Made by a program: the position numbers and the translations under genes. The notes beneath the pieces were generated by a model, which saw only the letters and a program-made list of their open reading frames with translations, made no database searches and was not told where the DNA came from. DNA of 39,660 nucleotides from contig JAFRGW010000151.1 in assembly GCA_017433615.1 (NCBI GenBank), positions 1 through 39,660 on the forward strand. Reading direction: 5' to 3'. Shown here piece after piece: positions 406 to 22,684 of the stretch (within the stretch, counting starts at the first letter, position 1; each line of letters opens with the position of its first letter). Source of the stretch: Eubacterium sp. (GTDB taxonomy: Bacteria > Bacillota > Clostridia > Lachnospirales > Lachnospiraceae).

Positions 406-1797
406 TCAGCAGAACGCTCCCTTCATCACATATACTTTAATGTGACTGAACTCTTCGAGTGAAATGCTAATCCCCTCCCGTCCGAGTCCGCTCTGCTTAT
501 AGCCGCCGAACGGCTGATCCAGATGCCGGTAGAGACCGGTTCCGTTGATGACGGCGCCGCCGGCCTTTAGTTTCGAAGCCACACGAAATGCGCGTTGCAG
601 ATCTCCGCTCATAACACCTGAGGAAAGTCCATAGATGGAGTTGTTTGCAATTGCAATTGCCTCATCTTCTGTCTCAAATGGAATCAGCGGATACACAGGA
701 CCAAATACTTCCATATTTGAGGCAATGTCCATGTCCGGTGTCACATCTGCCAGAACGGTTGGCTCAATACGTGCTCCGGATCTGGTGCCGCCTGTCACAA
801 GGCGGGCACCCTGCTCAATTGTTTTCTGAATCTGTCCTTCTACAGTGATGGCAGCCTGTTCCGTCACAAGACAGGTCACATCAGCGTCTTCCTCAAGAGC
901 AAAACCTCGCTTTAGTGCATCGAGCCGCGCTGCAATGCCCTCACAAACTTTATCATAGATTCCTTTCTGGACAACAAATCGTTTAGATGAGCAGCAGACC
1001 TGTCCATTGTTCTCCATGCGCGCCGCAACCATTTCATCCAGTACCTTCTCCAGGTCGGTATCATCAAAGATCACCAGTGCGTCATTTCCTCCCAGCTCCA
1101 GGAACATCCGCTTCAGCGTGTCTGCACCTGCTTTTACCATCTGCTTTCCTGCCGCCGTACTGCCGGTCAGGCTGACTGCATCGATCTGCGGATTTGCCAG
1201 GATTTTCTCGTTGACCGCTTCTCTGCCGGATACAAAAAACTGCAGAACACCTTCAGGAAATCCTGCCTCTGCGGCGTATTTCGCAAAGGACATCACAACG
1301 AGCGGATTGGAACTCGGTGCCTTAACCAGTACGGTATTTCCCATTACCAGTGCCGGCGCAACCTTCTGGAATGTCAGTTCAGTCGGATAATTAAACGGAA
1401 TGATGCAGGCAATCGTCCCGAGCGGCTCGCGTTTTGTAAATACCAGGTCTCCGTCAAAACCGGGACCGCTGTCGGAAATAACCTCTCCGTAAAGGTGCTT
1501 TGCGCGCTCCGCTGCCGCACGGAGCAGCTTGATACCGTCCTCTGCCTCAACCCGAGCCTGCAGGATCGGCTTTGCCATATCCTTTGCCATCAGCTGTGCG
1601 ATTGCTTCCTGATCAGCTTCCATAGCATCAGCCATTCGATAGAGGTATGCAGCGCGATCATACAGCGGCGTACCCGCCCACATCTCCTGCGCCGCCACAG
1701 CGCGGTCTACCATCTTCTGCACCTGCTCTGAAGAGGAAAGCTCCAGTTCTGCCAGAAGTTCATTTGTCATAGGATTTGTTACTTTTAAAACTTCCAT
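406..1797 (-). CDS. NAD(P)-dependent aldehyde dehydrogenase
   Basis: The 463-residue product is a full-length ALDH-superfamily enzyme, expected to oxidise an aldehyde to a carboxylate (or acyl product) in the cytoplasm. Visible hallmarks are the oxyanion Asn136 in PFNYP, the cofactor-loop motif SLTGSTAAGK (about 209-218), general base Glu234 in LELGGND and nucleophile Cys268 in NNGQVCCSS. It resembles succinate-semialdehyde/GapN/lactaldehyde-type enzymes, but the substrate cannot be fixed from sequence. The ATG follows AAGGAGAG at a good distance. It has its own upstream half-operator of the regulon palindrome and lies after gntR paralogue 1, so it is probably co-regulated with the transporter and aminotransferase. 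I infer that it oxidises the aldehyde made in the pathway. Confidence 0.93.
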   Translation of the reverse strand: MEVLKVTNPMTNELLAELELSSSEQVQKMVDRAVAAQEMWAGTPLYDRAAYLYRMADAMEADQEAIAQLMAKDMAKPILQARVEAEDGIKLLRAAAERAKHLYGEVISDSGPGFDGDLVFTKREPLGTIACIIPFNYPTELTFQKVAPALVMGNTVLVKAPSSNPLVVMSFAKYAAEAGFPEGVLQFFVSGREAVNEKILANPQIDAVSLTGSTAAGKQMVKAGADTLKRMFLELGGNDALVIFDDTDLEKVLDEMVAARMENNGQVCCSSKRFVVQKGIYDKVCEGIAARLDALKRGFALEEDADVTCLVTEQAAITVEGQIQKTIEQGARLVTGGTRSGARIEPTVLADVTPDMDIASNMEVFGPVYPLIPFETEDEAIAIANNSIYGLSSGVMSGDLQRAFRVASKLKAGGAVINGTGLYRHLDQPFGGYKQSGLGREGISISLEEFSHIKVYVMKGAFC

Positions 1798-2825: not shown

Positions 2826-3941
2826 TTATTTCTTCTTGGAAGTCGTCGCATCAATGACAACCGCTGCCAGAATGATCAGTCCCTTGAAGATCATCTGCGC
2901 CTCTGCCGCCACGTTCATCAGGGACAGCAGGTTGTTCAGGACACCCATCAGAAGTACGCCGACGACGGTTCCGGTAAGCTTGCCGGCGCCGCCTGCCATG
3001 CTGGTTCCGCCGATGACTACTGCAGCGATTGCGTCGAGCTCCCAGTTAGTGCCGACCTGCGGAGTGCCGGCACCGAGTCTTGCTGCAGTCAGGACGCCGC
3101 CGAAGCATGCGAGACCGGAGCACATGACGTAAATGCCGATAATATTATTTGTTACATTGACACCAGCAAGTCTCGCGCTGTTGACATTTCCTCCAATCGC
3201 GTAGACGTTGCGGCCGAAAATTGAACGGTTCAGTACGATCGTAAAGAATACAACCAGCAGAACAGAAATCGTTACGATGTAGGACAGGCCCTTGGTCTGG
3301 AACATCAGATAAGCAAGATAGATGATGATCAGAACAAATGCAGCGATCTTGCCGACCGTGCCGCCGCTGACTTTTCCGTAGTGCTGTTTCTCTGTGCGAA
3401 TCATAGAATATGCGAGATAAGCAAATCCTGCAACCAGAATCACCAGAACCGGGATCGCCGGAAAGTTTCCGCTTCCGAGTGCATTAACACCTGCATTCGG
3501 AATTGCCACCGCTGCACTTCGTGTGATAACAAGCGCAGCACCTTTGGCGATTGTCTGGCCTGCCAGAGTCGCAATAAATGGCGGAACATTCAGCTTCGTG
3601 ATCAGAAGTCCGTAAATAAAACCGACCAGGCAGCCGCCCAGTACCATCACGATTGCGGACGGAATATATCCGATTTTCAGACCCAGCATCGCGAACAGAA
3701 CACCTGAGAGTGCGACAAAACTTCCGACTGACAGATCAATTCCGCCTGAAATGATGACAAATGTCATGCCGACTGCCAGCAGCGCCGGTACAGCGACCTG
3801 TTTCAGAATGTTCATAATATTGACCGGCATCAGGAAGGTGCGGCTCAGAATGATTGACAGGATAATCAGGCCGACAAGACCGATCATGGAAGTATAGTTT
3901 TTCCAGTTAAAAGATGTTTTTTTCGCTGTATCTGTACTCAT
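2826..3941 (-). CDS. Ribose-type sugar ABC transporter permease (RbsC family)
   Basis: The 371-residue integral membrane protein carries the family motifs MTFVIISGGIDLSVGS (about 59-74) and a C-terminal GGTSMAGGAGKLTGTVVG. It has many hydrophobic helices and is predicted to form the homodimeric channel of a CUT2-type importer in the plasma membrane. It is about 50 residues longer than E. coli RbsC because of an inserted hydrophobic/polar segment in the middle (about 150-215), which is common in clostridial homologues. The ATG overlaps the ATPase stop by four bases (ATGA), giving translational coupling. Substrate is unknown: CUT2 systems carry pentoses, hexoses, inositol and autoinducer-2. Its operon starts at an operator-bearing promoter, so it belongs to the regulon. 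Confidence 0.92.
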   Translation of the reverse strand: MSTDTAKKTSFNWKNYTSMIGLVGLIILSIILSRTFLMPVNIMNILKQVAVPALLAVGMTFVIISGGIDLSVGSFVALSGVLFAMLGLKIGYIPSAIVMVLGGCLVGFIYGLLITKLNVPPFIATLAGQTIAKGAALVITRSAAVAIPNAGVNALGSGNFPAIPVLVILVAGFAYLAYSMIRTEKQHYGKVSGGTVGKIAAFVLIIIYLAYLMFQTKGLSYIVTISVLLVVFFTIVLNRSIFGRNVYAIGGNVNSARLAGVNVTNNIIGIYVMCSGLACFGGVLTAARLGAGTPQVGTNWELDAIAAVVIGGTSMAGGAGKLTGTVVGVLLMGVLNNLLSLMNVAAEAQMIFKGLIILAAVVIDATTSKKK

Positions 3942-5470
3942 GGCAGAACGTCTCCCTTCATTGCATATTTGGCCAGCAGCTCTTCACTTGCTTCTTTCTG
4001 TGAAACCTCTCCTGTGATCGTTCCTTCCCGCATGATCAGGATCCGGTCACTGACACCCATAACCTCCGGGAGTTCTGATGAGATAACCACAACTGCCACA
4101 CCGGCATCTGCCAGCTTCTGCAGAATAAAATATATTTCTTTCTTTGCGCCGACATCGATTCCGCGCGTCGGTTCGTCGAGGATGAGGATCTGGGGATTGT
4201 TCAGCAGCCACTTGGATAAAACAATTTTCTGCTGATTTCCGCCGGAGAGCGTACTGACCGGCCGGAATATATCCGCCAGACGAATCGACAACTTCGGAAT
4301 CATGCTGTTCATTGCGTCCGTCTGTTTTTTATCATCAAGCAGTGTCAGCTTGTTTGCGTACTGCTTCATCGATGCCAGCGTCGCATTATCACGTATGCTG
4401 TGGATCAGGCAGAGGCCTGTCTTTCTGCGGTCCTCTGTAACCAGGCCGATTCCGTGATTGATCGCATCCTTACAGTTTTTGATGTGAACCTTCTCACCGT
4501 TAATATACAGCTCGCCGCTGGTCGGAACATCATCTCCTTCAAAAATTGAAGAGACAAATTCTGTCCGGCCGGCACCCATCAGACCATAGATACCGAGAAT
4601 CTCGCCCGCGTAAACCTGCATGCTTGCGCCTTCAACAATCTTTTCCGTTCTGGATCCGGTTTTGTAAACATCCCAGTTCCGGACATCCAGCACCGGCTTC
4701 ATCCCTTCGGGACGCTTTTTGGTCTTCGGCGCATACATGTCTTTCAGCTCACGGCCGACCATCTGCGTAATCAGCATATCCTTATCCATGTCTTTTGTCG
4801 GTGCCATATTGACGAACTGTCCATCCTTCAGGATGACCACATCGTCACAAATCTTAAAGATTTCATCCAGTTTGTGAGAGACGTACAGCATCGTCGTGCC
4901 GCGCGACTGGAGACGGCGCATGATCTCAAACAGAATATCAACTTCCTTGTCTGTCAGTGAGCTGGTCGCCTCGTCAAAGATAATGACCTCCGGGTTTCTG
5001 GAAATCGATTTTGCGATTTCAACCATCTGCTGCTGACTGATCGAAAGATCGGAAATCTTCGCATTCGGATCAATTTCAATCTGCAGCTCTTTGAAAATGT
5101 TTGCTGCGCGGTCGGTCATCTCTTTGCGTTTCACCAGACCCAGCCGGGATGGATATGCACCGAGACAGATGTTTTCCGCCACCGTCATCTCCGGAATCAG
5201 ATTCAGTTCCTGATGAATAATACAGATGCCTTCCGCTTCCGCGTCCAATGTATTGTTAAAATCAACTGCTTTCCCGTGTACCAGCACCTCTCCTGTGTAT
5301 ACCTTCTTTGTATAAACACCTGCAATAACTTTGGCCAAAGTAGATTTGCCTGCACCGTTCTCTCCACAGAGAGCTACTATATGTCCCTCTTCAACGCTCA
5401 TTGAAATGTGCTGCAGTGCTTTCGTACCGGGAAAGGTTACGCTGATATCTTTTAATTCGATTATACTCAT
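3938..5470 (-). CDS. Ribose-type sugar ABC transporter ATP-binding protein (RbsA/MglA family)
   Basis: The 510-residue protein has two ABC domains. The first has Walker A GENGAGKST, a signature-like LSISQQQ and Walker B FDEATSSL. The second has the usual CUT2 deviation GLMGAGRTE in place of Walker A, the signature LSGGNQQK and LDEPTRGIDVG. It energises import through the permease encoded just downstream, with which it overlaps by four bases. The start codon follows AGGAAAGG. It is intact and typical in length, in contrast to the degenerate homologue at 6820-8358. Confidence 0.94.
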   Translation of the reverse strand: MSIIELKDISVTFPGTKALQHISMSVEEGHIVALCGENGAGKSTLAKVIAGVYTKKVYTGEVLVHGKAVDFNNTLDAEAEGICIIHQELNLIPEMTVAENICLGAYPSRLGLVKRKEMTDRAANIFKELQIEIDPNAKISDLSISQQQMVEIAKSISRNPEVIIFDEATSSLTDKEVDILFEIMRRLQSRGTTMLYVSHKLDEIFKICDDVVILKDGQFVNMAPTKDMDKDMLITQMVGRELKDMYAPKTKKRPEGMKPVLDVRNWDVYKTGSRTEKIVEGASMQVYAGEILGIYGLMGAGRTEFVSSIFEGDDVPTSGELYINGEKVHIKNCKDAINHGIGLVTEDRRKTGLCLIHSIRDNATLASMKQYANKLTLLDDKKQTDAMNSMIPKLSIRLADIFRPVSTLSGGNQQKIVLSKWLLNNPQILILDEPTRGIDVGAKKEIYFILQKLADAGVAVVVISSELPEVMGVSDRILIMREGTITGEVSQKEASEELLAKYAMKGDVLP

Positions 5471-5588: not shown

Positions 5589-6695
5589 TTATTTAAAGAG
5601 ATTCGGGAACTTCGGTCCGCTGATTTCCTCAACAGTATCCGGTGTTACGATCGCGGTCGGGGTATACCATACCGGAACGCCGTCAACCTCCTCGTCAACC
5701 GTAACATCCTCACCTGCAACAAGTTTCTTGGTGACCTCGATCATACGTCTTCCCTGTTCAACAGCACCTTTGTCGATCGTACGCATCTTTTTGCCGTCGA
5801 TGATTGCCTGATCCATCTCTTCGTCATTATCAGCGCCGATGAACCAGATATCGTCAGCGATTCCTGCATTTTCAGCAGCTTTTCTTGCACCGAGTGCCAT
5901 ATTGTCATTGTTTGCGAGAACTGCCTGGATGTCACCGCCTGTCTGAACAATTGCATCCTCCATGAGGTTCATTGCTTTCTGACGATCCCACTCCGGAACA
6001 GCCTGGTCTACAACGATGGTCAGATTATCATGCTCTGCAACTGCATCACGTACACCCTGTGAAATTTCTTCTGCAACGAAGTCACCGACCGTTCCCGGGA
6101 AGAGCACGATATTTGCTTTTGTATCTTCGCCGATTTCGTTGAGCAGCGCTTCAACCTGCTGCTTACCGACATCATAAGAGTTGCTGGTCAGCCAGAGATC
6201 TGACTTGAAGCCCTGAATACCCATTTCCATCGTGATAACGGGGATGCCGGCATCACGTGCCATCTGTGCTGTGGAGGCCATCGATTCCATGTCCGCCGGC
6301 TCAAGAAGCAGAACATCAATTCCCTGACTCAGCATGGTCTCAACCTGATTTTTCTGCGTAGCCGCGTTGAGCTCGCAGCTCTGATACAGAACGTCTACAC
6401 CTTCCTTCTCACCTTCTGCAACTGCAGAATCACGCATAACCGTGTAAACATTAGCCTTCAGTGTCTGAACACAGGCGCCGAGAACAATATTTCCGTCCTT
6501 GCTCTTGGCTTCTGCTGATGAACTGTCTGCTACTGCACTGCTTGCTGCTGCACTGCTGCCTGCTGCTGCGCTGCTTGCTGCTGCACTGCTGCCTGCTGCT
6601 GCGCCGCTGTCAGAGGAGCCGCCGCAGGCTGCCATAGAAAGTGCCATTGCTCCTGCCAGAATCCCTGCTGCAAGTTTCTTCCAGTTCTTTCTCAT
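5589..6695 (-). CDS. Ribose-type sugar ABC transporter substrate-binding lipoprotein (RbsB family)
   Basis: The product (368 residues from this start) begins with a lipoprotein signal peptide ending in the lipobox LSMAAC and is predicted to be anchored outside the membrane. A Ser/Ala linker follows, then a periplasmic-binding-protein type I domain with the motif DAGIPVITME and a C-terminal half with VLANNDNMALGA, the Rbs-type signature. The ATG at 6695 is chosen because AAAGGAGAAGG lies just upstream and the signal peptide starts there; an earlier in-frame start would add 13 polar residues. The linker DNA contains a perfect 33-bp tandem duplication. It is the first gene of the transporter operon, downstream of an operator-bearing promoter. 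Ligand is unknown. Confidence 0.93.
   Translation of the reverse strand: MRKNWKKLAAGILAGAMALSMAACGGSSDSGAAAGSSAAASSAAAGSSAAASSAVADSSSAEAKSKDGNIVLGACVQTLKANVYTVMRDSAVAEGEKEGVDVLYQSCELNAATQKNQVETMLSQGIDVLLLEPADMESMASTAQMARDAGIPVITMEMGIQGFKSDLWLTSNSYDVGKQQVEALLNEIGEDTKANIVLFPGTVGDFVAEEISQGVRDAVAEHDNLTIVVDQAVPEWDRQKAMNLMEDAIVQTGGDIQAVLANNDNMALGARKAAENAGIADDIWFIGADNDEEMDQAIIDGKKMRTIDKGAVEQGRRMIEVTKKLVAGEDVTVDEEVDGVPVWYTPTAIVTPDTVEEISGPKFPNLFK
6538..6603. repeat. Perfect 33-bp tandem duplication in the binding-protein linker
   Basis: Two identical 33-bp units (6538-6570 and 6571-6603) encode 11 residues each of an Ala/Ser-rich linker between the lipidated cysteine and the sugar-binding domain. It is in frame, so copy number could change by slippage without breaking the gene. 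Confidence 0.9.
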
Positions 6696-6752
6696 AATCC
6701 TTCTCCTTTTATAGTGGTTGTCATCACCTTGCAATTGCTACTTGATGGTAAA

Positions 6753-11070: not shown

Positions 11071-11099
11071 ATTTTACCTGTTTTGGGCACTTTCGTCAA
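11071..11099 (-). promoter_or_regulatory. Promoter of the response regulator/kinase operon
   Basis: On the minus strand TTGACG (11094-11099) and TAAAAT (11071-11076) are 17 bases apart, about 60 bases before the response regulator start and overlapping the end of the DMT transporter gene. The regulon palindrome is absent here, so the sensor pair seems to be expressed independently of the GntR repressor. Confidence 0.6.
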
Positions 11100-11994
11100 C
11101 TTCCGTCAACTTCTTTTCTCCGGGTGCTTTCTGCACCGTGCTGTTTTCCTTTACACTGATCATGATCGCCGCAAATACCAGCGCTCCGCCGATGACACCG
11201 TTTATTGTAACCGGCTCATGCAGAAGCAGTACCCCAAACACCCATCCTAAAACGGATTCAAGCGATAAGACAACTGAGGTATGCTCCGAAGAAGCATGCG
11301 CCAGACCGTAATTCTGACATAAAAAAGCCACACCGGAAAAACAGATGCCCATATATAAAAGAGAAAAGACACCTCTCATGCTGATCGCTGAAGGATAAGC
11401 ACCGAAAGCAGGAGCTGTCAGGCCGCACAGTACCGCTGCCCCTGCAATCTGCAGCCAGGTCAGAAGGTATGTATCATCGTTCTTCGCATATTGATCTGTA
11501 TAGACGAATCCCAGCGCTGCGGTCGCAGGACATCCCAGCGCAATCAGACCGCGCGGGTCAAAAGATGACTGATCTGCCGCAAGCGAAAGCACAGCAATGC
11601 CGGCAATTGCAATTACCGCGCAAATAAAATCGAATGCAGAAGGTCTCACACGTTTCATCGCCCAGGCCACAAATGGCGTCATGACAACATATGTCGTACA
11701 CAAAAAGGCGTTCTGTCCGGCGGATGTATACTGCAGACCGATGATCTGAGAAGAAAAATTTACAAACATGATCACGCCAATCACAAGACCATGTCGAACT
11801 GTTTTTCGATCCCAGCGTTCATTTCTGCGCAGCATAAAGGGCAGCAAAAACAACGCGGCAATTCCCGAACGAAAAAAATTCAGCCAGCCGGGTCCCACCT
11901 CTGACAGGACAGACTTTCCGGCGACAAAACCAAATCCCCATATAAAGGGAGTCAGAAATAAGATCAGCTCTGTTTTGATTATATCTTTACTCAT
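11074..11994 (-). CDS. DMT-superfamily transporter (EamA family)
   Basis: The 306-residue protein has about ten hydrophobic helices in the two-EamA-domain layout. Typical landmarks are FLTPFIWGFGFVAGK at the N-terminus, FLCTTYVVMTPF in the first half and SVVLSLESVLGWVFGVLLLHEP in the second. Proteins of this family export or import metabolites and amino acids; the substrate is not predictable. The ATG overlaps the hydrolase stop by four bases (ATGA), so the two are in one operon. A second, distinct EamA transporter lies at 20486-21445 under the regulon operator. Confidence 0.92.
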   Translation of the reverse strand: MSKDIIKTELILFLTPFIWGFGFVAGKSVLSEVGPGWLNFFRSGIAALFLLPFMLRRNERWDRKTVRHGLVIGVIMFVNFSSQIIGLQYTSAGQNAFLCTTYVVMTPFVAWAMKRVRPSAFDFICAVIAIAGIAVLSLAADQSSFDPRGLIALGCPATAALGFVYTDQYAKNDDTYLLTWLQIAGAAVLCGLTAPAFGAYPSAISMRGVFSLLYMGICFSGVAFLCQNYGLAHASSEHTSVVLSLESVLGWVFGVLLLHEPVTINGVIGGALVFAAIMISVKENSTVQKAPGEKKLTEVDESAQNR

Positions 11995-12773
11995 AGCTTG
12001 AAAACACGCTCAAAAAACGAGACCGTCATGTCGATATTCTCGCTCTCATGTACCATGAAAGAATGCTCTTCACCTTCGATCAGATGAAACTCCACAGGAA
12101 ACGAAACGCTTTCGGCAAGTTCTTTCGTGCGCTCCGGATTGATGAATGCATCACTTGCACCCTGTGCCAGCAGCAGTGCTGTGTTCCGGTAATTGCAAAC
12201 ATTACCTGCAATATTAATCGCTCTGATATCCTTAACGAACTGATCTGTCACGGAAAAGTATGCCCCCTCATACTGATGGTCAATCCGTTTCACAGTACCT
12301 TTCTCCAACGCATCCCACTTTTCATCTGTAAAGATTCCCCGGAACACCTCCTCACCATTTACAACCGGTGCCCAGGCTGCAACTGCCTTGATTCTCTCAT
12401 CAATACCGGCCGTCAGAACCGTGCCGCCTCCGAAGCTGATGCCAAGCATGCCGATCCTTTCCGGATCCACCTCCGGCTGATTCTGTACAAATGTCACAGC
12501 TGCCAGCAGATCAGATACCCACCCTGACAGATGTGTATTTTCTGCAAAATCGGCCTCACTGCTGCCCGATCCGATAAAATCAAACCGAAGAACATAGAAA
12601 CCGTGCGCGGAGGCCTCTTTTGCAAAATCCACATACAGCCGGGACCCCTCATGACATGCACCCGTAAATCCATGACATAGGATCAACGCCGGAGCCGGAG
12701 CACTGCCCGCAGGCAAATGCGCATATCCGAATACCGTTTCACCGCGATTATTAAAGCATACCTGTTTCATCAT
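11991..12773 (-). CDS. Alpha/beta hydrolase, serine esterase or peptidase type
   Basis: The product (260 residues from this start) has an oxyanion loop CHGFTGACHEG, a nucleophile elbow GISFGGG, an acidic site region (LAQGASDAFINPERTKE) and a late catalytic His in GEEHSFMVHE. This is the full set of a soluble alpha/beta hydrolase of the BAAT/dipeptidyl-peptidase-IV-like type. The ATG-ATG pair at 12773 follows GAGGAAAG, so the earlier in-frame start is not used here. It overlaps the DMT transporter gene and may share a transcript with the upstream GntR paralogue. It might release the catabolised compound from an ester, amide or conjugate, but that is inference. Confidence 0.88.
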   Translation of the reverse strand: MMKQVCFNNRGETVFGYAHLPAGSAPAPALILCHGFTGACHEGSRLYVDFAKEASAHGFYVLRFDFIGSGSSEADFAENTHLSGWVSDLLAAVTFVQNQPEVDPERIGMLGISFGGGTVLTAGIDERIKAVAAWAPVVNGEEVFRGIFTDEKWDALEKGTVKRIDHQYEGAYFSVTDQFVKDIRAINIAGNVCNYRNTALLLAQGASDAFINPERTKELAESVSFPVEFHLIEGEEHSFMVHESENIDMTVSFFERVFKL

Positions 12774-12890
12774 GGTTCTTTCCTCGTACAATCGTTTTTG
12801 TATGTAGCTTCATTTCTTCTTTCCGCTTTTCCCGTTTTCTGCTGTTTTCCAGAGACCAAAGCTCTGTAACAACATGCGAGGCGTCCTGGT

Positions 12891-13577
12891 TCAAGGCACT
12901 TCGTTCTCAAAATATTTCGGAAAATCGTATCTGAGTATTTCTTCCTTCTTCCGCATATGAATATAATCGTGATGCACATCCAGTAAATCACGCAGTTCCT
13001 TTTCATTTCCCTCCGCAATCAGCTTTATCATTTCGCGGTGCTCCTTCATTGAGTTTTCCATCACGCCTTCCCGGCGAAGATCCAGTGTAAGCACGCGGTT
13101 ATAGTGCGCTCTGGAATCAGAAATAATTGACCAGGTCATCTCGTGTCCCGCGATTTCGAAGATCTTCTGATGAAACTGATTGTCACTTTTGATATAGTCA
13201 ACAACCTGCTTACGATTTACTGCTTTCTGCAGGAAAAACAAACTGTCCTCTAGTTCCTCTTCCAGATTCCGCTTCTGCCGACAGAGTTCTACACAGACAT
13301 CGGTATCCAGAATATGCCGCATATATGCGCACTCCCGGGCAATCCCGAAACTGATCGCAGCGACATATGTTCCCCGCTGCGGAAAAACATCAATCAGATA
13401 CTCATTTGACAGACGGATCAGCGCCTCGCGGATTGGTGTCCGGCTGACGCCGAGCCGTTCGATCAGTTCACTTTCCCTGATTATGGAACCGGGCAGCAGC
13501 TCCAGATATTGAATCTGGTCTTTCAGTTCCTGATAAACATCTGTTTTTGTTCTGGTATTTTTTCTTCTTGGACCCAT
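12891..13577 (-). CDS. FadR-subfamily GntR transcriptional regulator, paralogue 2
   Basis: The 228-residue product has a winged helix-turn-helix (about 10-75) and an FCD domain like those of the protein encoded at 1948-2625. The recognition-helix segment LGVSRTPIREALIRLS is identical in both, and the FCD ligand residues (IARECAYMRHILDTDVCVELC, then HEMTW, then DVHHDYIHM) are nearly the same. The ATG at 13577 follows AGAGGA; an earlier in-frame start would add 22 unrelated residues. Unlike its paralogue it has no copy of the palindrome upstream, so it is probably not autoregulated by the same site. Both proteins should recognise the same operator and might respond to different ligands or form heterodimers. 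Confidence 0.9.
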   Translation of the reverse strand: MGPRRKNTRTKTDVYQELKDQIQYLELLPGSIIRESELIERLGVSRTPIREALIRLSNEYLIDVFPQRGTYVAAISFGIARECAYMRHILDTDVCVELCRQKRNLEEELEDSLFFLQKAVNRKQVVDYIKSDNQFHQKIFEIAGHEMTWSIISDSRAHYNRVLTLDLRREGVMENSMKEHREMIKLIAEGNEKELRDLLDVHHDYIHMRKKEEILRYDFPKYFENEVP

Positions 13578-13607
13578 CTTCAGTCCTCTCTTCTTTATAC
13601 GAAAGGA

Positions 13608-13633
13608 GCTGCTGCAGATCACACCACAGCAGC
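13608..13633 (-). other. Hairpin in the leader of gntR paralogue 2
   Basis: A perfect seven-base stem GCTGCTG / CAGCAGC with a 12-base loop lies 30 bases before the start codon and just before a GGAG-like stretch. It may influence mRNA stability or translation. No terminator tail is present. The rest of 13634-13750 shows no recognisable gene or regulon palindrome. Confidence 0.35.
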
Positions 13634-13750
13634 CCGCATGCATTGTTAATTGTTTCTATTTCTATGACTGTATAACGGATTTATTCCAGTCAAATTGATA
13701 AGCAATTACACAATGGCTCCGAATTTCTTATTATTAACCGTTATCTGAAA

Positions 13751-15175
13751 TCAGATATAACCGTACTTCTTTTCTACCTCTGTGATTGCAGCATCGAGGA
13801 TCTCGAACAGCTCATCAACATCTTCCTTCTCGATGTTGATCGGCGGGATGAAGGAGATTCTGTTGCCGAGATAGCCGTTGAGCTGACACAGAAGTCCGTT
13901 ATCACGGCAGACATTGACGATATCATGTGTCTCGTCCTTGGCCGGCTCTTTGGTCTCACGGTCCTTGACAAATTCCATGCCGAGGTAGACGCCGCGGATG
14001 TTGTAGGTGCCCATGGACGGGTGATCTTCCATCAGCTTCTCAAGCTTCGGCTTCATGTACTCGCCGGTAGCGGTGCACTTTTCAAGGAGGTGATCCTCTT
14101 CAATGATGTCGAGCACTGTATTTCCAACGCGGCAGCCCATTGCATAACCTGCATAAGTGGAGCAGATGAAGGAAACATCGATGTCCTCAAACAGCTCTGC
14201 CTTACCGACGATACCGGACATCGGGATGCCTGCGCCCAGTGCCTTGCCGAATACCAGGATATCCGGAACAACGCCCTCATGCTCACAGCACCACATTTTG
14301 CCAGTGCGGCCCATACCGGTCTGGATCTCGTCGAAGATCAGAAGGAATCCGTACTTGTCAGCCAGGTTGCGCAGACCCTGCAGGAAGCCCTTCGGCGGAA
14401 TGATGTAGCCTGCGGAGCTCTGGCACGGCTCTACGATCAGTGCTGCGACGTTGCAGATGCCTGCATCCGGAGCGCCCATCGGGGTAACGCCTGTGGACAT
14501 CATGTTGTCGATCAGATTCAGGCACTGCTCAACGCACTCTTCCTCTGTGCCGCCGAACGGATTGCGGTATGCATACGGATACGGGAAGTGCTCGATGCAG
14601 TTGTCCTGAGACGGCATCGGATTGTAGTAGCTGGTCATACGGCCGGAGCCTGTCAGACCCATGGTAGCGGAGTTCTGACCGTGGTATGCGCCGTAGAAAG
14701 AGATAATGTGCTGTCTCTTTGTCGCGTAACGTGCCAGACGGATTGCATTCTCAACTGCGTCGGATCCGGACAGTGCCAGGCGGACTCTCTTTGGGAAGTC
14801 ACCCGGTGTGATGTCGATCAGACGGTTGACCAGTTTCAGTCTCTCCGGTGTCGGGAAATCGAACCAGTTGTCCAGCTGATTCATGTACTGATCATACATT
14901 GCCTCTGCAATTCTCTTATCAGAATGTCCGAGGTTCATAGAGGACATGCCGGTAATGCAGTCGATATACTCTTTTCCATCGACGTCCCAGATTCTCGCGC
15001 CTTTGCCCTTTGCAATAATCTGCGGATAGTCCCACTTTGTGAACAGGACATCGCCCGGATGCTCATGCTGCAGAAAGTCGATAATGCCGGCCTTGTTTCC
15101 CGGTGTCATATTCTCCGCATTCTCAATTCTGTCCAACAGTTTCTGGAACGGTTTTTTCTCAGCTGCGTTTGCCAT
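13751..15175 (-). CDS. Class III pyridoxal-phosphate aminotransferase (omega-amino acid or amine:pyruvate type)
   Basis: The 474-residue enzyme is full length for the class III family. Visible landmarks are the phosphate-binding GSDAVENAIRLAR, the motif FYGAYHGQ, Asp282 in LLIFDEIQTGMGRTG (holds the PLP pyridine nitrogen) and PLP lysine Lys311 in LVFGKALGAGIP. It should move an amino group between an omega-amino compound and a keto acid such as pyruvate in the cytoplasm. The ATG at 15175 is preferred to one two codons earlier because it is properly spaced from AGGAGG. Its promoter carries the regulon palindrome, and alanine dehydrogenase is under the same control. This suggests an alanine/pyruvate couple, which is inference. 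Confidence 0.93.
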   Translation of the reverse strand: MANAAEKKPFQKLLDRIENAENMTPGNKAGIIDFLQHEHPGDVLFTKWDYPQIIAKGKGARIWDVDGKEYIDCITGMSSMNLGHSDKRIAEAMYDQYMNQLDNWFDFPTPERLKLVNRLIDITPGDFPKRVRLALSGSDAVENAIRLARYATKRQHIISFYGAYHGQNSATMGLTGSGRMTSYYNPMPSQDNCIEHFPYPYAYRNPFGGTEEECVEQCLNLIDNMMSTGVTPMGAPDAGICNVAALIVEPCQSSAGYIIPPKGFLQGLRNLADKYGFLLIFDEIQTGMGRTGKMWCCEHEGVVPDILVFGKALGAGIPMSGIVGKAELFEDIDVSFICSTYAGYAMGCRVGNTVLDIIEEDHLLEKCTATGEYMKPKLEKLMEDHPSMGTYNIRGVYLGMEFVKDRETKEPAKDETHDIVNVCRDNGLLCQLNGYLGNRISFIPPINIEKEDVDELFEILDAAITEVEKKYGYI

Positions 15176-15267
15176 TTTCATATCCTCCTGTGGTTTTTGA
15201 ATTTTTTATAAAAGTATTGATTTCGTTTTGTTTCCGGTTCGCTTTTTTAAAGCTGCCCGTCTCCTGA

Positions 15268-15563: not shown

Positions 15564-16358
15564 TCACTCGCCTCTCCAGAACTCTGCGTCCTTGTCATAG
15601 AGATAGACATACTTCGGATCATCGATTCTGGTTTTTTCCCACGGATTATCCGGCATATGACGGATGCCCCACGCGTAGCAGCACGCAAAGCCCGGCGCCA
15701 TAACGACAGGATGTACACCCTCTGTGATGATCGACATACCGTTATTGTGTACTTCTACGATCTCTCCATCACACCAGCTTGCTCCAAAGCCTTCTTCCGG
15801 TTTTTCAAAATGGTAGAAATATACCTCCGGCTGCGGATGAGAATGCGGTGGGTAGGAAGACCACTTGCCCGGAAGATTGATCACTTCGCCAAGAACCATA
15901 TTGGACAGCGGATTGATCTCATAATCAAAGCTGGTGCGCACATCTCTCTTAATGCATCCCGCACACTCGCCGTCTGCTCCGCGGCGCCAGGTATCAGTCT
16001 CATCCGGCGTGTACAGATGGTTCTCGAATTTCTTGTCATTGTAAGTCTTCTGAACATAGAATTCGCAATGTCCGTGCGCAGTCAGCTTACAGGAGCCGCC
16101 CGCTGCCAGGTGCAGACACCATGTGCTGTAGTCAAATGGATTCGGCCGGTCCATGTCAACAGACTTGCCGTCATACTCCACGGTTGCATTTCCGCAGAAC
16201 ATGATCCATGCCATCTCCTTTTCCTCCTCATGGAATTCAAATGTATCCCCATCCTCCATGATCAGAAGCGCAACATCCATATAGCTGTTCTCACCGTTGT
16301 TCACATCTGCGCTGATATACTCGTTGTACCCGCGCCTGCAATCTTTCTCTACATACAT
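15564..16358 (-). CDS. 5-deoxy-glucuronate isomerase family protein (IolB-like cupin)
   Basis: The 264-residue product matches the KduI/IolB family in length and layout, two cupin barrels. The metal site is visible as His172 and His174 in SYPPHSHPQPE, Glu178 and a later His216 in EGVHPVVMAPG. IolB converts 5-deoxy-D-glucuronate to 5-dehydro-2-deoxy-D-gluconate in inositol catabolism. None of the other myo-inositol genes (iolC, D, E, G, J) is present here, so the real substrate may be a related open-chain uronic or keto-sugar. The ATG follows GAGGAGATAT. It is the last gene of the hydantoinase-family, B12-enzyme, isomerase operon. The family assignment is firm; the reaction is inferred. Confidence 0.85.
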   Translation of the reverse strand: MYVEKDCRRGYNEYISADVNNGENSYMDVALLIMEDGDTFEFHEEEKEMAWIMFCGNATVEYDGKSVDMDRPNPFDYSTWCLHLAAGGSCKLTAHGHCEFYVQKTYNDKKFENHLYTPDETDTWRRGADGECAGCIKRDVRTSFDYEINPLSNMVLGEVINLPGKWSSYPPHSHPQPEVYFYHFEKPEEGFGASWCDGEIVEVHNNGMSIITEGVHPVVMAPGFACCYAWGIRHMPDNPWEKTRIDDPKYVYLYDKDAEFWRGE

Positions 16359-16474: not shown

Positions 16475-18247
16475 TTACAGTTTTGAAATCTGATCAACCG
16501 TGATCCGCATGTCGTTGCTCGCGTGAATACCGATTTCCTCCAGCAGATCCGCTATCTCTGTCGGCTCAGAGTGACCGGGCAAAATCGCGTTGAGTTTTCC
16601 CCCCATAAAGAACCAGTATTCTTTGCCGCGCTCCTTTGCAAGCTGTACGAGCTGCCTGCCGTAATCAAGCGCCTGTCCGTTGTGGCAGCTGACGCCGATG
16701 AACTTTGTTCCTACTTCATCTGCCAGATCAAGCATGTCAACTGCATCCATATCGACGCCTGCATTGACTGTCTCCGCTCCCATTTCCTGCAAAATGCCCT
16801 CGACCAGCACAAGTCCGTAGGTGTGAGCGTCGCCGGAGCCGACCACAACGGTCTTACCATCCAGAGAACCGCGCATATTCTTTGCATCCAGATCGTCCAG
16901 AATTTCCTGCTTCATTTCCATCGTCTGACGTCCGAGAATCGTAGTATAGAACGGCTGAATATCTGTACTTGCTGTTCCGAAGGTCGTTGAGTGGAACATC
17001 TGTTCATAGCGGATTGGATTCATCTCCATCAACACCAGAAGCATCTCAACCGGATCTTCGATGTCAATGCCTGCCTCTTTGAATCCTTCGAGACTGTTGT
17101 AGAAGAGCTTTGCTCCTTCTTCCGCCATGACGTCACGCATTTTTTCAAGCGGCTCAAAGTTAAAGTATGGAAGCCACTCGTCTGCCTTCTCTTCCGCGCG
17201 CTTTCCTGCCGCAAAGATATCCTCCAGCTCCTGAAGGGTGGGAACACGCAGCTTTTCGGTAATGGAGACCGGATTGATGCCCAGTCCCATGTGATATTTC
17301 TTCTCGACCAGTATTTCAAACAGCATCTCCGGCACACTGACGCCGTAGTTGCCGTGGATATCGTGATCCCACTGCAGATTAGTGGATCCGTTCAGATAAC
17401 GGAGAACCGGCTGATCCTCTGTGGAGAGGACTTTATCCAGTGCCATTGCGACAGCACAACGCGTATCATTTTCACTCAAAAGGCCGCCGAATCCGATGGT
17501 ATAACGAGCGCCGCAAAGCTTCGTGCAGATGTAGTGCTCCAGCATCGCGTAACCAACATATGACGCACAATCCAGGAAGTAACCTGCGTAGCCATCGTCC
17601 AGATACGTCTTTACTTCTACATAGTCGTCGCTCTTAGCCGCACAGACGCCGAGGGCACGTACCATGTTGCACATGCGCTCTACATTATCATTATATCCGA
17701 AGAACCCCCAGTTAAACTGACAGAACTCCCCGATGGTCGGTGAGCCGTGCTCGATTGCGAGAATCGTATTCGCATAGCCGTTCGGCGTTGACAGATGATA
17801 GTCATTGAAGGAAACATCGATCGGACACGCCGCCTGCTGCAATTCATAATCCTCATCTGTGTACATCTCATAGCTGGTGGTTGCCGGTGCCTTCTCGCGC
17901 CACTCCGGCGGAAGGGCGACGAGACCGCTCGGGATCGACTGGATCGAATGGATCTGCAGTCCGCTGCGCTGCGAGAACTCATACAGCTTTTTTTCCGCCT
18001 CAACCTGCTCTTCAAGCGTCGCAAGACCCAGCAGAATATTCCAGTATATCTTACCCTGCTTCATCAGGTCGCGCTTCATCTCCGCATGGTTTTTGTATTT
18101 ACTTTGACTGCGGATAAAACCGCCTTTTCCAAATGGAATTGTTTTTCCTTTTTCATAACCTTCTCGCCACATCTCCATTCCGTCCGGATGTGCCTGCGGC
18201 TTCAGACTCTTCAGATAATCCAGTGACACCTGATTCAGCTTACCCAT
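16475..18247 (-). CDS. Single-chain cobalamin-dependent carbon-skeleton mutase, glutamate-mutase-like
   Basis: The 590-residue protein ends in a B12-binding Rossmann domain (about 455-590). It has the classic motif DAHTYG with lower axial ligand His475, then VSCHNGQ (S-x-L-like position) and FFMGGKLN. The preceding ~440 residues look like the TIM-barrel catalytic subunit of glutamate mutase (GlmE/MutE), for example TIGFGGLLSENDTRCAVAMAL where GlmE has a similar TVGYGE segment. In glutamate mutase the two parts are separate chains (E, and S at the B12 side); here they are fused in the order E-S. It is encoded three bases after a hydantoinase/oxoprolinase-family gene, which may be its reactivase. 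Substrate is unknown; a 1,2-rearrangement is expected. The ATG follows GAGGAGTAAAAC. Confidence 0.82.
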   Translation of the reverse strand: MGKLNQVSLDYLKSLKPQAHPDGMEMWREGYEKGKTIPFGKGGFIRSQSKYKNHAEMKRDLMKQGKIYWNILLGLATLEEQVEAEKKLYEFSQRSGLQIHSIQSIPSGLVALPPEWREKAPATTSYEMYTDEDYELQQAACPIDVSFNDYHLSTPNGYANTILAIEHGSPTIGEFCQFNWGFFGYNDNVERMCNMVRALGVCAAKSDDYVEVKTYLDDGYAGYFLDCASYVGYAMLEHYICTKLCGARYTIGFGGLLSENDTRCAVAMALDKVLSTEDQPVLRYLNGSTNLQWDHDIHGNYGVSVPEMLFEILVEKKYHMGLGINPVSITEKLRVPTLQELEDIFAAGKRAEEKADEWLPYFNFEPLEKMRDVMAEEGAKLFYNSLEGFKEAGIDIEDPVEMLLVLMEMNPIRYEQMFHSTTFGTASTDIQPFYTTILGRQTMEMKQEILDDLDAKNMRGSLDGKTVVVGSGDAHTYGLVLVEGILQEMGAETVNAGVDMDAVDMLDLADEVGTKFIGVSCHNGQALDYGRQLVQLAKERGKEYWFFMGGKLNAILPGHSEPTEIADLLEEIGIHASNDMRITVDQISKL

Positions 18248-18250
18248 GTT

Positions 18251-20302
18251 TTACTCCTCTTCTTCCCACCCGGGACTTGCAATTGCTGTTGCAGTTACCT
18301 TCTCTTCTATAAATGTTTTTTGTTCTGTGCCGAAAATTTCTGTGTATACCGGTTTTTTCATGACACTGACGGTCATTTTATTTCCGCCGGATTCCCTGAT
18401 CCGCTGTATGACATACGCGCGGGCAGCTTCCTCTGCCCGGCGTTCTGCCGCCTCCAGCGTATCACATTCCATCGTTTCCGCAGGTGCATGTACCAGAAAT
18501 CCCCTGTGATACTGATCCGGGCGGATCAGTATTTCAACAGCCGCTGCTACTTCACCGACTGCCGCGCCGATTGCATTCGCTACTTCTGCATGTTCCGGAA
18601 TGATCAGCTTCGTCCCCAGCTGTTCTGCAACCGGCGGAAGCCAGGCCTTTACCGGCGCGCCGATTGCAATCAGCGGTTTTTTCAGGGAAAGCGATACATT
18701 TAACAGCGGATGCTCTGTCTGCAGAATAAAGTGCACCAGCGGATCCGAAAAATCAAATCTGCTGTTCTCAAAATCCGCCGTACTCTGCAGGCAGGCAATC
18801 CGGATCCTCTCTGTAACAATATGAAAACATTTTTCCAGGAATACTGCTTTGCCTTCTGCGGCGCGGTACGCCATAATCCTTACTGCCTCTGCCGCGACGG
18901 CCGGATTTCCGGCTGGGAGAATACCATCTTCACGAACCATTTGTCCTGATGTATCTGACTGCTTCCCTGCAATATCCCGTACACCCGTCTTTTCATCAGA
19001 TGAAGCATTGCCGGCGAAAAACGCCGACGCGCACAGCAGATCCGTCGGGGTAAGCGAACACCGCTGCAGCAAGCCCCGTCTGACATATTCCGAAAAATCC
19101 ATCTTGTCATAATCCCGTCCCATCTGCTCCGACAGATAAAACCGGGAATGCGGTCCGTCCGCAAGCAGACCGGCCAGTTTGTTTTCATCATAATCCGGAT
19201 GCTCTGGGACAGCGCCCAGACGGTAACAGTCTACAACTTCTCCGAAGAAGATCTCATGCTCCCGCGGCGGATGATACTGCGCCCATTCCTGAATCAGATC
19301 CGGATTTTCCAGTCCTGCAACTGCCAGGGGTATCACGCGCTCGGAACTGATCTGCAGTGAGCCGAATTTATCGTACTGAATCCAGCTGTCTCCGCCAATT
19401 CCGTGTGTAGATATTTCCGCGGCTTTCAGCTGTGTCTTCCATCCGCCGACGGTCGCGCCTGCCGATGTGATCCGCACGCGTCCGCCTGCAACATTCGCTA
19501 TATCGGTCGTTGTGCCGCCGACATCCACAATCAGCGCATCCTGTATGCCCGTCAGGAACCGGCCTCCAACCACGCTGGCAGCCGGTCCGGAAAGTACTGT
19601 CTCAATTGGCCGGTCCATCGCCGCAGTATCCAGCATCAGACTACCGTCGCCGCATACCACCATGCAGGGCGCCTCGATCCGGAGCACCTGCAGCGCATCG
19701 TGCGTCGCTTCGATCAGATGTGTAATATTCGGAATCAAAGCGGCGTTCAGGATTGCCGTAACTGTCCGCTCCCGGTAGCCCAGACTGCTGCTCAGTTCGT
19801 GCGCACAGACGACCGGAACGGACAGGATTTCCTTTGCAATCTGTTTGATCTGCAGTTCATGCGCAGGGTTGCGCACACTGGCAAACCCGGAGATAGCGAG
19901 CGCATCGATCTTCCCATCCATCTCCTTTAGATACGCACGAATCTGTTCCGGTCGAATGTGTTCGATTTCTCTTCCTTTAATATCCAATTGTCCGGAAGCC
20001 TGAAACACCAGATCAGCAGGAAGTTCCGTCTCGCGCATACGCCGTCCCAGATAAATCAGGCCGGTCCGGCCGCCCTTTCCCTCTACAACTGCATTTGTTG
20101 CCAGCGTAGTAGAAAGGCATACCAGTGTGATCTCTTCCGGCTGCTCCCAGTTCAGTTTTTTAACAGAGGCAAGAATTCCCTTCAACAGATCTTCCCGCGT
20201 TGTGAAGCTTTTGGCCTTGCACACGACTGTGCGCTTCGCGGTATCAATGAGAACACTGTCTGTATAGGTGCCTCCTGTATCAACTCCCAGAATAACGGAC
20301 AT
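18251..20302 (-). CDS. Hydantoinase/oxoprolinase-family ASKHA ATPase, possible partner or reactivase of the B12 enzyme
   Basis: The 683-residue protein has the two ASKHA phosphate motifs GVDTGGTYTDSV (N-terminus) and VDVGGTTTDIANV, the hydantoinase A signature LSGPAASVVGG, and a C-terminal PEHAEVANAIGAAVG segment. Known relatives are ATP-dependent hydantoinases, 5-oxoprolinase subunits, acetone/acetophenone carboxylase subunits and, more distantly, GlmL of glutamate mutase and corrinoid reactivators. No HyuB-type second subunit is encoded nearby, which argues against a complete hydantoinase or carboxylase. The tight spacing (three bases) to the B12 enzyme gene suggests the two proteins act together. 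The ATG follows AAAAGGAG, and the promoter bears the regulon operator. Confidence 0.85.
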   Translation of the reverse strand: MSVILGVDTGGTYTDSVLIDTAKRTVVCKAKSFTTREDLLKGILASVKKLNWEQPEEITLVCLSTTLATNAVVEGKGGRTGLIYLGRRMRETELPADLVFQASGQLDIKGREIEHIRPEQIRAYLKEMDGKIDALAISGFASVRNPAHELQIKQIAKEILSVPVVCAHELSSSLGYRERTVTAILNAALIPNITHLIEATHDALQVLRIEAPCMVVCGDGSLMLDTAAMDRPIETVLSGPAASVVGGRFLTGIQDALIVDVGGTTTDIANVAGGRVRITSAGATVGGWKTQLKAAEISTHGIGGDSWIQYDKFGSLQISSERVIPLAVAGLENPDLIQEWAQYHPPREHEIFFGEVVDCYRLGAVPEHPDYDENKLAGLLADGPHSRFYLSEQMGRDYDKMDFSEYVRRGLLQRCSLTPTDLLCASAFFAGNASSDEKTGVRDIAGKQSDTSGQMVREDGILPAGNPAVAAEAVRIMAYRAAEGKAVFLEKCFHIVTERIRIACLQSTADFENSRFDFSDPLVHFILQTEHPLLNVSLSLKKPLIAIGAPVKAWLPPVAEQLGTKLIIPEHAEVANAIGAAVGEVAAAVEILIRPDQYHRGFLVHAPAETMECDTLEAAERRAEEAARAYVIQRIRESGGNKMTVSVMKKPVYTEIFGTEQKTFIEEKVTATAIASPGWEEEE

Positions 20303-21571: not shown

Positions 21572-22684
21572 ATGATCGTAGGAGTTGTGAAAGAAATCAA
21601 GAACAATGAGTTTCGTGTAGGTCTTACCCCGGATGATGTAAAAGCATACAAGGACGCGGGCCATACCGTTCTGGTAGAGGCAGGCGCAGGCGAAGGATCT
21701 TCCTTTGCTGATGAAGAATATGCGGCAGCAGGTGCTGAACTGATTGAAGCAGCTGCAGATGTCTGGGCAAAATCCGAAATGATCGTCAAGGTAAAAGAGC
21801 CGATCGAATCTGAGTATCAGTATCTCAGAAAAGACCTCCTTCTTTATACATATCTGCATCTTGCAGCAGATAAGCCGCTCACAGATGCACTTCTGGTATC
21901 CGGCACAAACTCAATTGCGTATGAGACCATCACAGGACCGCGCGGCGGACTTCCCTGCCTGATCCCGATGAGCCAGATCGCAGGACGCATGTCCGTACAG
22001 GAAGGCGCTAAATATCTCGAAAAGACATACGGCGGCCGCGGCGTCATGCTCGCAGGCGTTCCCGGTGTCCAGAAGGCAAATGTTGTCATCCTCGGCGGCG
22101 GCGGCGTCGGCACAAACGCATGCAAGATCGCTGTCGGACTTGGCGCAAATGTTACCATCCTTGATATCAGTGCTGAGCGTCTCGCATATCTCGATGACAT
22201 CTTCGGAAGCCGCATCCAGACACTATACAGCTCCCGTGCAAATGTTCTTGCTTCCATCAAAGAAGCTGATCTGGTCATCGGCGCTGTGCTGCTTCCGGGA
22301 CGCAAGACCCCGAATCTGGTGCTCGAAGAGGATCTGAAGCTTATGAAAAAAGGCGCAGTTCTGGTAGACGTCGCGATCGATCAGGGCGGCTGCATCGAGA
22401 CCTCTCACGCAACCACACATGACGATCCGGTCTTTATCAAAGAAGGCATCGTACATTACTGTGTCGCAAATATGCCGGGCGCACTGTCCCGCACCTCCAC
22501 GCTTGCACTGTGCAGCACCACACTCAATCATGGACTCGCACTTGCAAATAAGGGCTTTGAGCAGGCAGTCAAGGATGATCCCTGCCTCGCTGCAGGCGCA
22601 CAGACCTACCAGGGCAAGATCACATTCCCGGGTGTCGCAGAGGCATTCGGTATGGAATACTTCCCGATCGAGACACTGGTTTAA
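21572..22684 (+). CDS. ald: Alanine dehydrogenase
   Basis: The 370-residue enzyme interconverts L-alanine and pyruvate plus ammonium with NAD in the cytoplasm. Family residues are in place: Arg15 in FRVGLTP, Lys75 in VKVKEP, His96 in YTYLHLAAD, and the dinucleotide motif VILGGGGVGTNA followed by acidic Asp in TILDIS. Length is standard. The ATG follows AAAGGAG. It is placed under the same palindromic operator as the aminotransferase and the B12 enzyme operon. I infer that it regenerates pyruvate from alanine formed by the aminotransferase, or supplies alanine as donor. The codons near the start look well expressed, with few rare ones. Confidence 0.96.
   Translation: MIVGVVKEIKNNEFRVGLTPDDVKAYKDAGHTVLVEAGAGEGSSFADEEYAAAGAELIEAAADVWAKSEMIVKVKEPIESEYQYLRKDLLLYTYLHLAADKPLTDALLVSGTNSIAYETITGPRGGLPCLIPMSQIAGRMSVQEGAKYLEKTYGGRGVMLAGVPGVQKANVVILGGGGVGTNACKIAVGLGANVTILDISAERLAYLDDIFGSRIQTLYSSRANVLASIKEADLVIGAVLLPGRKTPNLVLEEDLKLMKKGAVLVDVAIDQGGCIETSHATTHDDPVFIKEGIVHYCVANMPGALSRTSTLALCSTTLNHGLALANKGFEQAVKDDPCLAAGAQTYQGKITFPGVAEAFGMEYFPIETLV

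Follow-up and report, generated by a model that had tools for sequence, protein, structure and literature searches.

What does a protein of the hydantoinase A (HyuA) type do beside a B12 protein when HyuB, the subunit that completes the known hydantoinase reactions, is missing? The question is raised by two adjoining genes on the minus strand of a 39,660-base contig of a Eubacterium sp. assembly (JAFRGW010000151.1), the whole of which is called the window here. The upstream gene (18251..20302; 'C4') encodes a HyuA-like ASKHA protein of 683 residues, the proposed ATP-dependent reactivating partner of its neighbor, and the downstream gene (16475..18247; 'C1') encodes a fused B12-dependent mutase-like enzyme of 590 residues. 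We read the pair as an adenosylcobalamin (AdoCbl)-dependent fused mutase with a dedicated, ATP-dependent reactivating partner, and put the probability of this reading at about 0.55. Taken separately, the 590-residue protein probably has AdoCbl mutase chemistry, and it is somewhat likely that the HyuA-like protein is a reactivating partner.

Layout of the pair

Open reading frames and Pfam matches bore out both genes and the spacing that an earlier, sequence-only reading of the window had given them, the ATG of the mutase gene lying 3 bases past the stop of the HyuA-like gene. By eye, a ribosome-binding-site-like (Shine-Dalgarno-like) stretch for the mutase, gaagaggagTAAaacATG, falls within the last codons of the HyuA-like gene; this placement, together with the 3-base gap, makes it likely that translation of the mutase is coupled to the HyuA-like gene. 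Chance juxtaposition was rejected on the grounds of these overlapping translation signals and of the conservation of the pair. Because the window is an entire contig of a 2.97-Mb, 173-contig assembly with 6.89% contamination, its assignment to the host is uncertain.

Mutase branches and their ASKHA partners

Searching 398 genomes of the phylum gave full-length mutase relatives in three (the window's own, G083, and G280 with two). A repeat over the 398 genomes with a 26-row profile returned the same three, the other matches listed being confined to the region of the B12 domain. The class of G280 yielded no more relatives (1 of 46 genomes, G280 itself), and viral contigs held no match to exact peptide patterns of the window protein. 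Scanning genome contigs by motif gave 26 loci, 13 with close relatives (37-87% identity; L036-L048) and 13 with distant ones (24-27%; L049-L061); the scan was incomplete, since two further close mutases (40% and 44%) surfaced later next to additional HyuA-like copies. Alignment A2 combined the window with 24 of the 26 loci, leaving out L052 (a near-copy) and L056 (truncated), and came to 26 rows because L048 gave two. In the tree of these rows, 15 close and 11 distant rows were split by one branch with support 100/100. The additional L048 row (Anaerovorax odorimutans) is a second mutase copy at positions 580-2334 of that locus, 35% identical to the window's and ~5.7 kb before the first; one HyuA-like gene is present in the fetched stretch.

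The survey of co-occurrence separated the two branches by their partner. By tblastn, a HyuA-like ASKHA protein was present in 11 of the 13 close loci and in none of the 13 distant ones, whereas a MutL-type ASKHA protein was present in all 13 distant loci (49-70% identity to that of L057) and in none of the 13 close ones; none of the 26 loci had both kinds. The MutL-type protein of L057, the only one of the 13 that was scanned, matched TIGR01319, the GlmL family, at 314.1 bits (cut-off 204). The HyuA-like partner does not always adjoin the mutase: genes intervene in L038 and L045, and in L041 it lies ~5 kb off. Bacilliculturomica massiliensis has both pairs, a distant mutase with a GlmL-type protein (L058) and, in L265, a row of genes for an aldehyde dehydrogenase, a HyuA-like protein, a class III enzyme and a close-type mutase. 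The strongest evidence for the HyuA-like protein in the role of GlmL is that each mutase branch keeps its own kind of ASKHA protein.

The HyuA-like protein and its clade

The 683-residue protein shares with the HyuA proteins of N-methylhydantoinase, 5-oxoprolinase and acetone carboxylase the ASKHA fold and the domains Hydant_A_N (109 bits) and Hydantoinase_A (84.5 bits, over profile positions 1-142 of 291). It differs from them in having no HyuB, in forming part of a separate clade and in falling far under the NCBIfam cut-offs (for caprolactamase alpha, 96.3 against 1000). Pfam MutL matched it weakly (30.6 bits, cut-off 27) in two short stretches, the best at residues 4-60, and there was no full-length match to the GlmL families (GlmL equivalog, 30.3 against 475 bits; glmL_fam, 12.4 against 204.05). 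The ASKHA motifs D8xGG..T14D15, D260xGGTTxD267 and G548AP...P569...V574ANAxG579 are kept in 25 or 26 of the 26 clade rows, of 28, that passed a length filter; with these nucleotide motifs intact, the protein is expected to bind ATP.

HyuB was found neither in the window nor in the 26 mutase loci (E 1e-3) nor in 16 further loci of the clade, using a model that finds 14 of 14 HyuA/HyuB loci but was built from the flanks of such loci, so that this recovery is not an independent control. The 16 loci came from a PF01968 survey of 119 phylum genomes, in which 17 matches, the window's included, were frames of ~650-720 residues covering only the first 137-186 of the 291 profile positions; the other 16 were fetched with ~6 kb per side, or less at contig ends. 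In a tree of 58 HyuA-like N-terminal domains, 16 survey proteins and 12 mutase-linked proteins, the window's among them, formed one clade of 28 rows (starred support 98), while 17 HyuB-linked HyuA proteins formed a side of their own (starred support 99) and acetone-carboxylase-like proteins and two other groups also fell outside. The tree was made by a quick method with one support measure; L036, L144 and L172 are less than half filled, L143, L160 and L203 sit on long branches, and four of 30 HyuA loci (L153, L161, L162 and L165), in which the script recognised no motif, are not in it. The separate clade and the lack of HyuB led us to reject an ordinary hydantoinase, in agreement with the sequence-only reading, and the protein does not look like a hydantoinase subunit. 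Among the mutase-linked proteins, 11 of 12 cluster together (starred support 99); that of L045 sits among proteins of corrinoid loci, at an unstarred support of 83-89, and may have been recruited separately.

The clade is often found near B12 proteins. A corrinoid protein or MttB methyltransferase was near 10 of the 16 clade loci and 1 of 24 other HyuA-like loci (1 of 14 HyuA/HyuB loci, and 0 of 4 and 0 of 6 in two other groups), as detected with models that were built mostly from the counted loci and may favor them over the controls. Both this count and that of HyuB covered, among the controls, 14 of 17 HyuB-linked loci and six of the seven in the h560 group. Pfam confirmed MTTB, B12-binding with B12-binding_2, the pterin-binding enzyme, the BCCT transporter, PocR and DUF1638 on representatives. 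A second set consisted of 11 further HyuA-like copies from genomes already chosen for their mutase loci, with the L044 genome left out; five of these (L265, L266, L270, L271 and L272) lie near a mutase of the family or near corrinoid/MttB genes. One more of the 16 is a second clade protein of the window's own assembly (L203, contig C43, 4.5-4.6 kb), which lies beside a URO-D-family protein (181.9 bits). Among the 14 HyuA/HyuB controls, the one B12-domain match is in L233 (G090:C1), where GlmE is encoded within ~3 kb of a HyuB-linked HyuA gene.

A HyuA-like gene of this kind has been listed before in the glycine-betaine cluster of Ca. Formimonas warabiya, where it stands in an MttB operon under the label hydantoinase or N-methylhydantoinase A ('HydA'), and the passages of that paper on the cluster assign it no function (PMC9768040). 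The copies of that organism (L270-L272) resemble the window protein over the full length by BLAST, and the HyuA-like proteins of such loci in other genomes share the clade of 28 rows with the window's. Searches of open-licence literature, whether for the pair or for HyuA-like proteins of corrinoid operons, found this one paper that names the gene.

The B12 domain of the 590-residue protein

Residues 462-590 (16475..16864, minus strand) form the B12-binding domain, PF02310 matching residues 470-559 at 37.6 bits (cut-off 32.1). Classical B12 domains carry the motif DxHxxG at a characteristic spacing from S and GG. The window protein has D473xH475xxG, S520 and G549G550, and D473, H475 and G478 of its DAHTYG (D473-G478) are invariant in all 26 aligned mutase rows; the single chain with a C-terminal B12 domain and its His475, as the sequence-only reading had described it, was thereby confirmed. 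Pfam gave no other match at E 0.1, the NCBIfam scan gave weak B12-domain matches only, and a PDB search with the mutase returned B12-domain matches plus one chance match. That the protein is a B12-binding enzyme is near certain.

A B12 domain might equally serve a corrinoid methyltransferase that carries its own corrinoid domain, the HyuA-like protein acting as its activator as in MttB operons. The closest HyuA-like relatives are indeed often in MttB/corrinoid operons, and the B12 domains of methyltransfer proteins score about equally with GlmS, which aligns to positions 461-570 of the mutase profile. Yet the B12-binding_2 cap (PF02607) is absent from the mutase by Pfam, whereas the corrinoid protein of L205, the one tested, has both PF02607 and PF02310, and the missing cap therefore speaks against methyl transfer. 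MttB was found neither in the window nor in the 26 mutase loci, and no pterin-binding methyltransferase was found in the close loci; a separate corrinoid protein with such a methyltransferase occurs only in L060, which belongs to the distant branch and has them on the other strand. MttB operons, moreover, have separate methyltransferase and corrinoid proteins where the window has a fused mutase-like enzyme, and the sister branch uses a GlmL-type partner, known for AdoCbl mutases. A methyltransferase is accordingly improbable as the identity of the 590-residue protein.

Evidence that counts against the pair as mutase and reactivator

Besides the origin of the corrinoid/MttB models, several results tell against the pair being a mutase and its reactivator. 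The first concern residues 1-450 of the mutase (16898..18247, minus strand), a conserved and putatively catalytic region of no named family. The sequence-only reading had seen a glutamate-mutase-like barrel here, a claim that was not confirmed: there was no family match in Pfam or NCBIfam, and PF06368, the GlmE-type barrel, gave none at E 0.1. Neither of the outcomes that the sequence-only reading had named as refuting it came about, since the region matched no known non-mutase family and HyuB was in none of the loci. Compared as a profile with 13 unreversed templates (11 families, two also in part) and reversed controls, the region had GlmE as its top template, weakly (P 0.002, probability 13.9%, 59 columns), followed by a GlmE-like family with an N-terminal B12 domain (P 0.004-0.005); all other unreversed templates had P >= 0.12, reversed GlmE gave 0.14 and the query against its own reverse 0.074. 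Sequences of the OAM/lysine-aminomutase type and of methylmalonyl-CoA mutase gave no signal in this comparison. Another mutase/GlmE profile alignment was collinear over 336 columns (P 0.014, probability 3.2%) and placed the invariant E331 (ITExxxVPT region) opposite the conserved Glu of GlmE PHEAxGIPT. The likeness to GlmE is a lead, not proof of homology.

Conserved residues would point away from a glutamate-like substrate. R66, R100 and R149 of GlmE, which we take to be the arginine claw holding the substrate, are invariant in 8 GlmE rows and have no conserved counterparts at the aligned mutase sites, with some doubt left by the remoteness of the alignment. The sole Arg kept in at least 90% of the mutase rows is R117 (25 of 26), and the invariant acids of the 26 rows are D149, D217, D218, D226, E237, D296 and E331. 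The loss of the claw together with these acids would therefore disfavor a dicarboxylate such as glutamate and favor a substrate bearing an amine or a hydroxyl.

The enzyme thus resembles glutamate mutase (GlmS/GlmE with GlmL) in its DxHxxG B12 domain, its adjacent ASKHA partner and its weak approach to GlmE, and departs from it in being one chain instead of two, in having no PF06368 match and no conserved claw, and in having a HyuA-like partner. 2-Methyleneglutarate mutase, of about the same size, is likewise a single chain and has its B12 domain at the C-terminus, so a single-chain B12 mutase is not in itself new, and the 590-residue protein could be that known enzyme or a close derivative. 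In a comparison by gene neighbors, however, the scanned part of the neighborhood had no genes of nicotinate breakdown, the pathway to which 2-methyleneglutarate mutase belongs; the arginines expected to hold a dicarboxylate are also not conserved. This identity seems quite unlikely to us.

A family of ~550-residue proteins (L107-L110 and L112) at first resembled single-chain mutases of this kind and was set aside, its loci having no countable similarity to the window pair. Its members (L109:7938-9569 and L110:5800-7446, for example) combine a B12 domain at the N-terminus with a C-terminal half that matches PF06368 weakly, by Pfam in L109; in L109 and L110 a gene for an NAD-binding dehydrogenase-like protein, recognised by eye, adjoins. 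It looks like another undescribed relative of glutamate mutase.

Further contrary evidence concerns the partnership itself. Two close loci have no ASKHA gene of either kind: L046, over 17.7 kb, though the same genome has the pair at L045, and L044, over 10.9 kb, with a contig edge 1.1 kb upstream of the mutase. Of the 16 clade loci, six had no corrinoid or MttB protein in the fetched stretch, three of these being short pieces (L203, 4.6 kb; L209, 7.0 kb; L213, 9.1 kb) and the others full length. In the second set, 6 of 11 copies had no B12 partner nearby. L263 has for neighbors a 2-aminoethylphosphonate transaminase that passes its cut-off and a phosphonatase relative that falls short of its own, and L264 has similar surroundings by eye, neither with a B12 protein within ~6 kb; ABC and PHP-domain genes are the neighbors of L268 and L269, the latter sharing a contig with the L040 mutase at a distance of >10 kb; and L273 has a DUF1638-type neighbor only. 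The sharpest case is L267 with the adjoining L274 (Butyricicoccus faecihominis), where ~26 kb hold the HyuA-like gene and no mutase, alongside genes for an aldehyde dehydrogenase, a class III enzyme, an FMN reductase-like protein and a glutamate-type dehydrogenase. Since several members have no B12 protein nearby, the partnership is frequent in the clade and not universal. The tie to B12 proteins proposed by the sequence-only reading stands on the tree, the neighborhoods and the exclusive swap with the GlmL type, and does not extend to these members.

Loci of this sort would fit a HyuA-like protein that is a metabolic enzyme of the pathway, for instance an ATP-dependent kinase of a carboxylate or amide, and does not act on the mutase. 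Known HyuA proteins perform ATP-dependent chemistry on metabolites; L267 has pathway enzymes without the mutase, and the neighbors of some of the B12-free loci are of the phosphonate or ABC/PHP type. Against such an enzyme, the place beside the sister-branch mutases is taken by a GlmL-type protein and never by a HyuA-like one, the clade is overrepresented next to corrinoid methyltransfer systems, which should have different substrates, and the HyuB that completes known hydantoinase reactions is absent. We regard a metabolic enzyme as unlikely, and retain the reading of the pair as a mutase and its reactivator.

Neighboring genes and the rest of the window

The genes that follow the mutase gene, all on the minus strand, encode in order a KduI/IolB-family protein, a class III pyridoxal phosphate (PLP) enzyme, a regulator, a hydrolase and a transporter. 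The sequence-only reading had named the first (15564..16358, 264 residues, a cupin isomerase-like protein) an IolB-like isomerase. Membership in the KduI/IolB family stood (PF04962, 146.2 bits), and true IolB did not (93.2 against 205 bits in NCBIfam), so that by these scores the product is classed as IolB-like and not IolB. It recurs in L037 (77% identity) and L038 (80%, partial). The class III PLP enzyme (13751..15181, 476 residues) matches Pfam; its best PDB matches were an amino-acid racemase, a protein named 4-aminobutyrate aminotransferase, isoleucine 2-epimerases and other aminobutyrate aminotransferases, and as both kinds are among them it may be either a transaminase or a racemase. 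Relatives at 58-80% identity occur in 7 of the 13 close loci (L036-L040, L042 in part, and L043), and diverged ones in L041, L047, L048, L265 and L266. By Pfam, a GntR/FCD transcriptional regulator (12891..13643), an alpha/beta hydrolase (11991..12791; relatives in L036, L038 and L040 by tblastn) and an EamA-family transporter (11074..11994) complete the series.

Beyond the EamA transporter, on the same side, are a two-component system and, by profile hidden Markov models, three genes of a sugar-type ABC importer and an aldehyde dehydrogenase gene, these four on the minus strand: a periplasmic sugar-binding-type protein (Peripla_BP_4, 5589..6734), a xylose/arabinose-like ATPase (3938..5470), a permease (BPD_transp_2, 2826..3941) and the aldehyde dehydrogenase (406..1797, 463 residues). 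Upstream of the pair, on the opposite (plus) strand, lies a gene for alanine dehydrogenase (21572..22684; 514.7 bits, above the TIGR00518 cut-off). Aldehyde dehydrogenase is present in 7 of the 13 close loci (29-74% identity), alanine dehydrogenase in L038, L040, L041 and L042 (partial), and a glutamate-type dehydrogenase in L266; ABC genes of L039, L041, L042 and L043 cluster by BLAST with the window importer, which alone was confirmed by hidden Markov models. Relatives of archaeal-type (type II) glyceraldehyde 3-phosphate dehydrogenase (GAPDH) and of phosphoglycerate kinase (PGK) occur in or near mutase loci (L048:13044-15352, L037:6-1814 and L275:10832-15722). In the PGK-like protein of L048, whose closest match is PGK 2cun, HQGD replaces the HQGK of that chain; the protein possibly acts on a different acyl phosphate, and the GAPDH and PGK relatives could possibly provide a step of substrate-level phosphorylation for the aldehyde.

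We read the locus as one that breaks down an amine-bearing compound, in which the mutase would rearrange either that compound or its product. The catabolic pathway suggested by the sequence-only reading fits the neighbors as amino-acid or amine catabolism, while the carbon-skeleton rearrangement and its substrate stay putative.

Elsewhere in the window, a phage-integrase-family protein (24454-25164, 71.6 bits) is followed by a sulfatase-family gene and MacB/HlyD-type export genes, and a cyclophilin-like domain (PF18050) occurs in two proteins (34687-35337 and 37289-38044), one with Big_2 and the other with a PBP-family domain. A tRNA search of the window found none. An Rfam scan of seven sources, the window included, gave the window no match, hence no B12 riboswitch, and three matches elsewhere; among the latter, a TwoAYGGAY RNA (85.6 bits against 43; L037:9841-10008) lies directly downstream of the mutase gene of L037 on the opposite strand.

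Proposed mechanism and significance

The mutase would be one chain with an N-terminal catalytic domain and a C-terminal base-off/His-on B12 domain in which His475 is the lower ligand, and its cycle would run through homolysis of the Co-C bond, hydrogen abstraction, radical rearrangement and back-transfer. The helper would be a HyuA-type ASKHA ATPase that has departed from hydantoin chemistry to do the job that GlmL/MutL is thought to do for other mutases: it would bind the mutase, and ATP would drive the exchange of damaged or wrongly loaded cobalamin or otherwise keep the mutase active. The substrate is probably an amino acid or an amine-bearing polyol, presumably taken in through the sugar-type ABC importer. 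Conversion of amine to aldehyde to acid may then fall to the class III PLP enzyme and aldehyde dehydrogenase, an order suggested by the gene content, with alanine dehydrogenase (glutamate-type in a relative) regenerating the amino acceptor.

A broader reading, which we offer tentatively and at less than even odds, is that the ~650-residue HyuA-like clade is a general ATP-dependent activator or reactivator for MttB-family methyltransferases and for the new fused AdoCbl mutases, that it replaced GlmL among these mutases (or the reverse), and that the rearrangement catalyzed by the window mutase, acting on an amino acid or amino polyol, is one not yet described. Enzymes served by an ASKHA helper are already known; what is new here, as far as the open-licence literature shows, is the HyuA-type helper and its reach into MttB operons.

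Because one mutase family has the HyuA-like protein beside one of its branches and a GlmL-type protein in its place beside the other, a gene that is widespread in corrinoid methyltransferase operons gains a concrete hypothesis, B12-enzyme reactivation, which lends itself to a simple two-protein test. The mutase, for its part, would lengthen the still short list of carbon-skeleton mutases that depend on B12.

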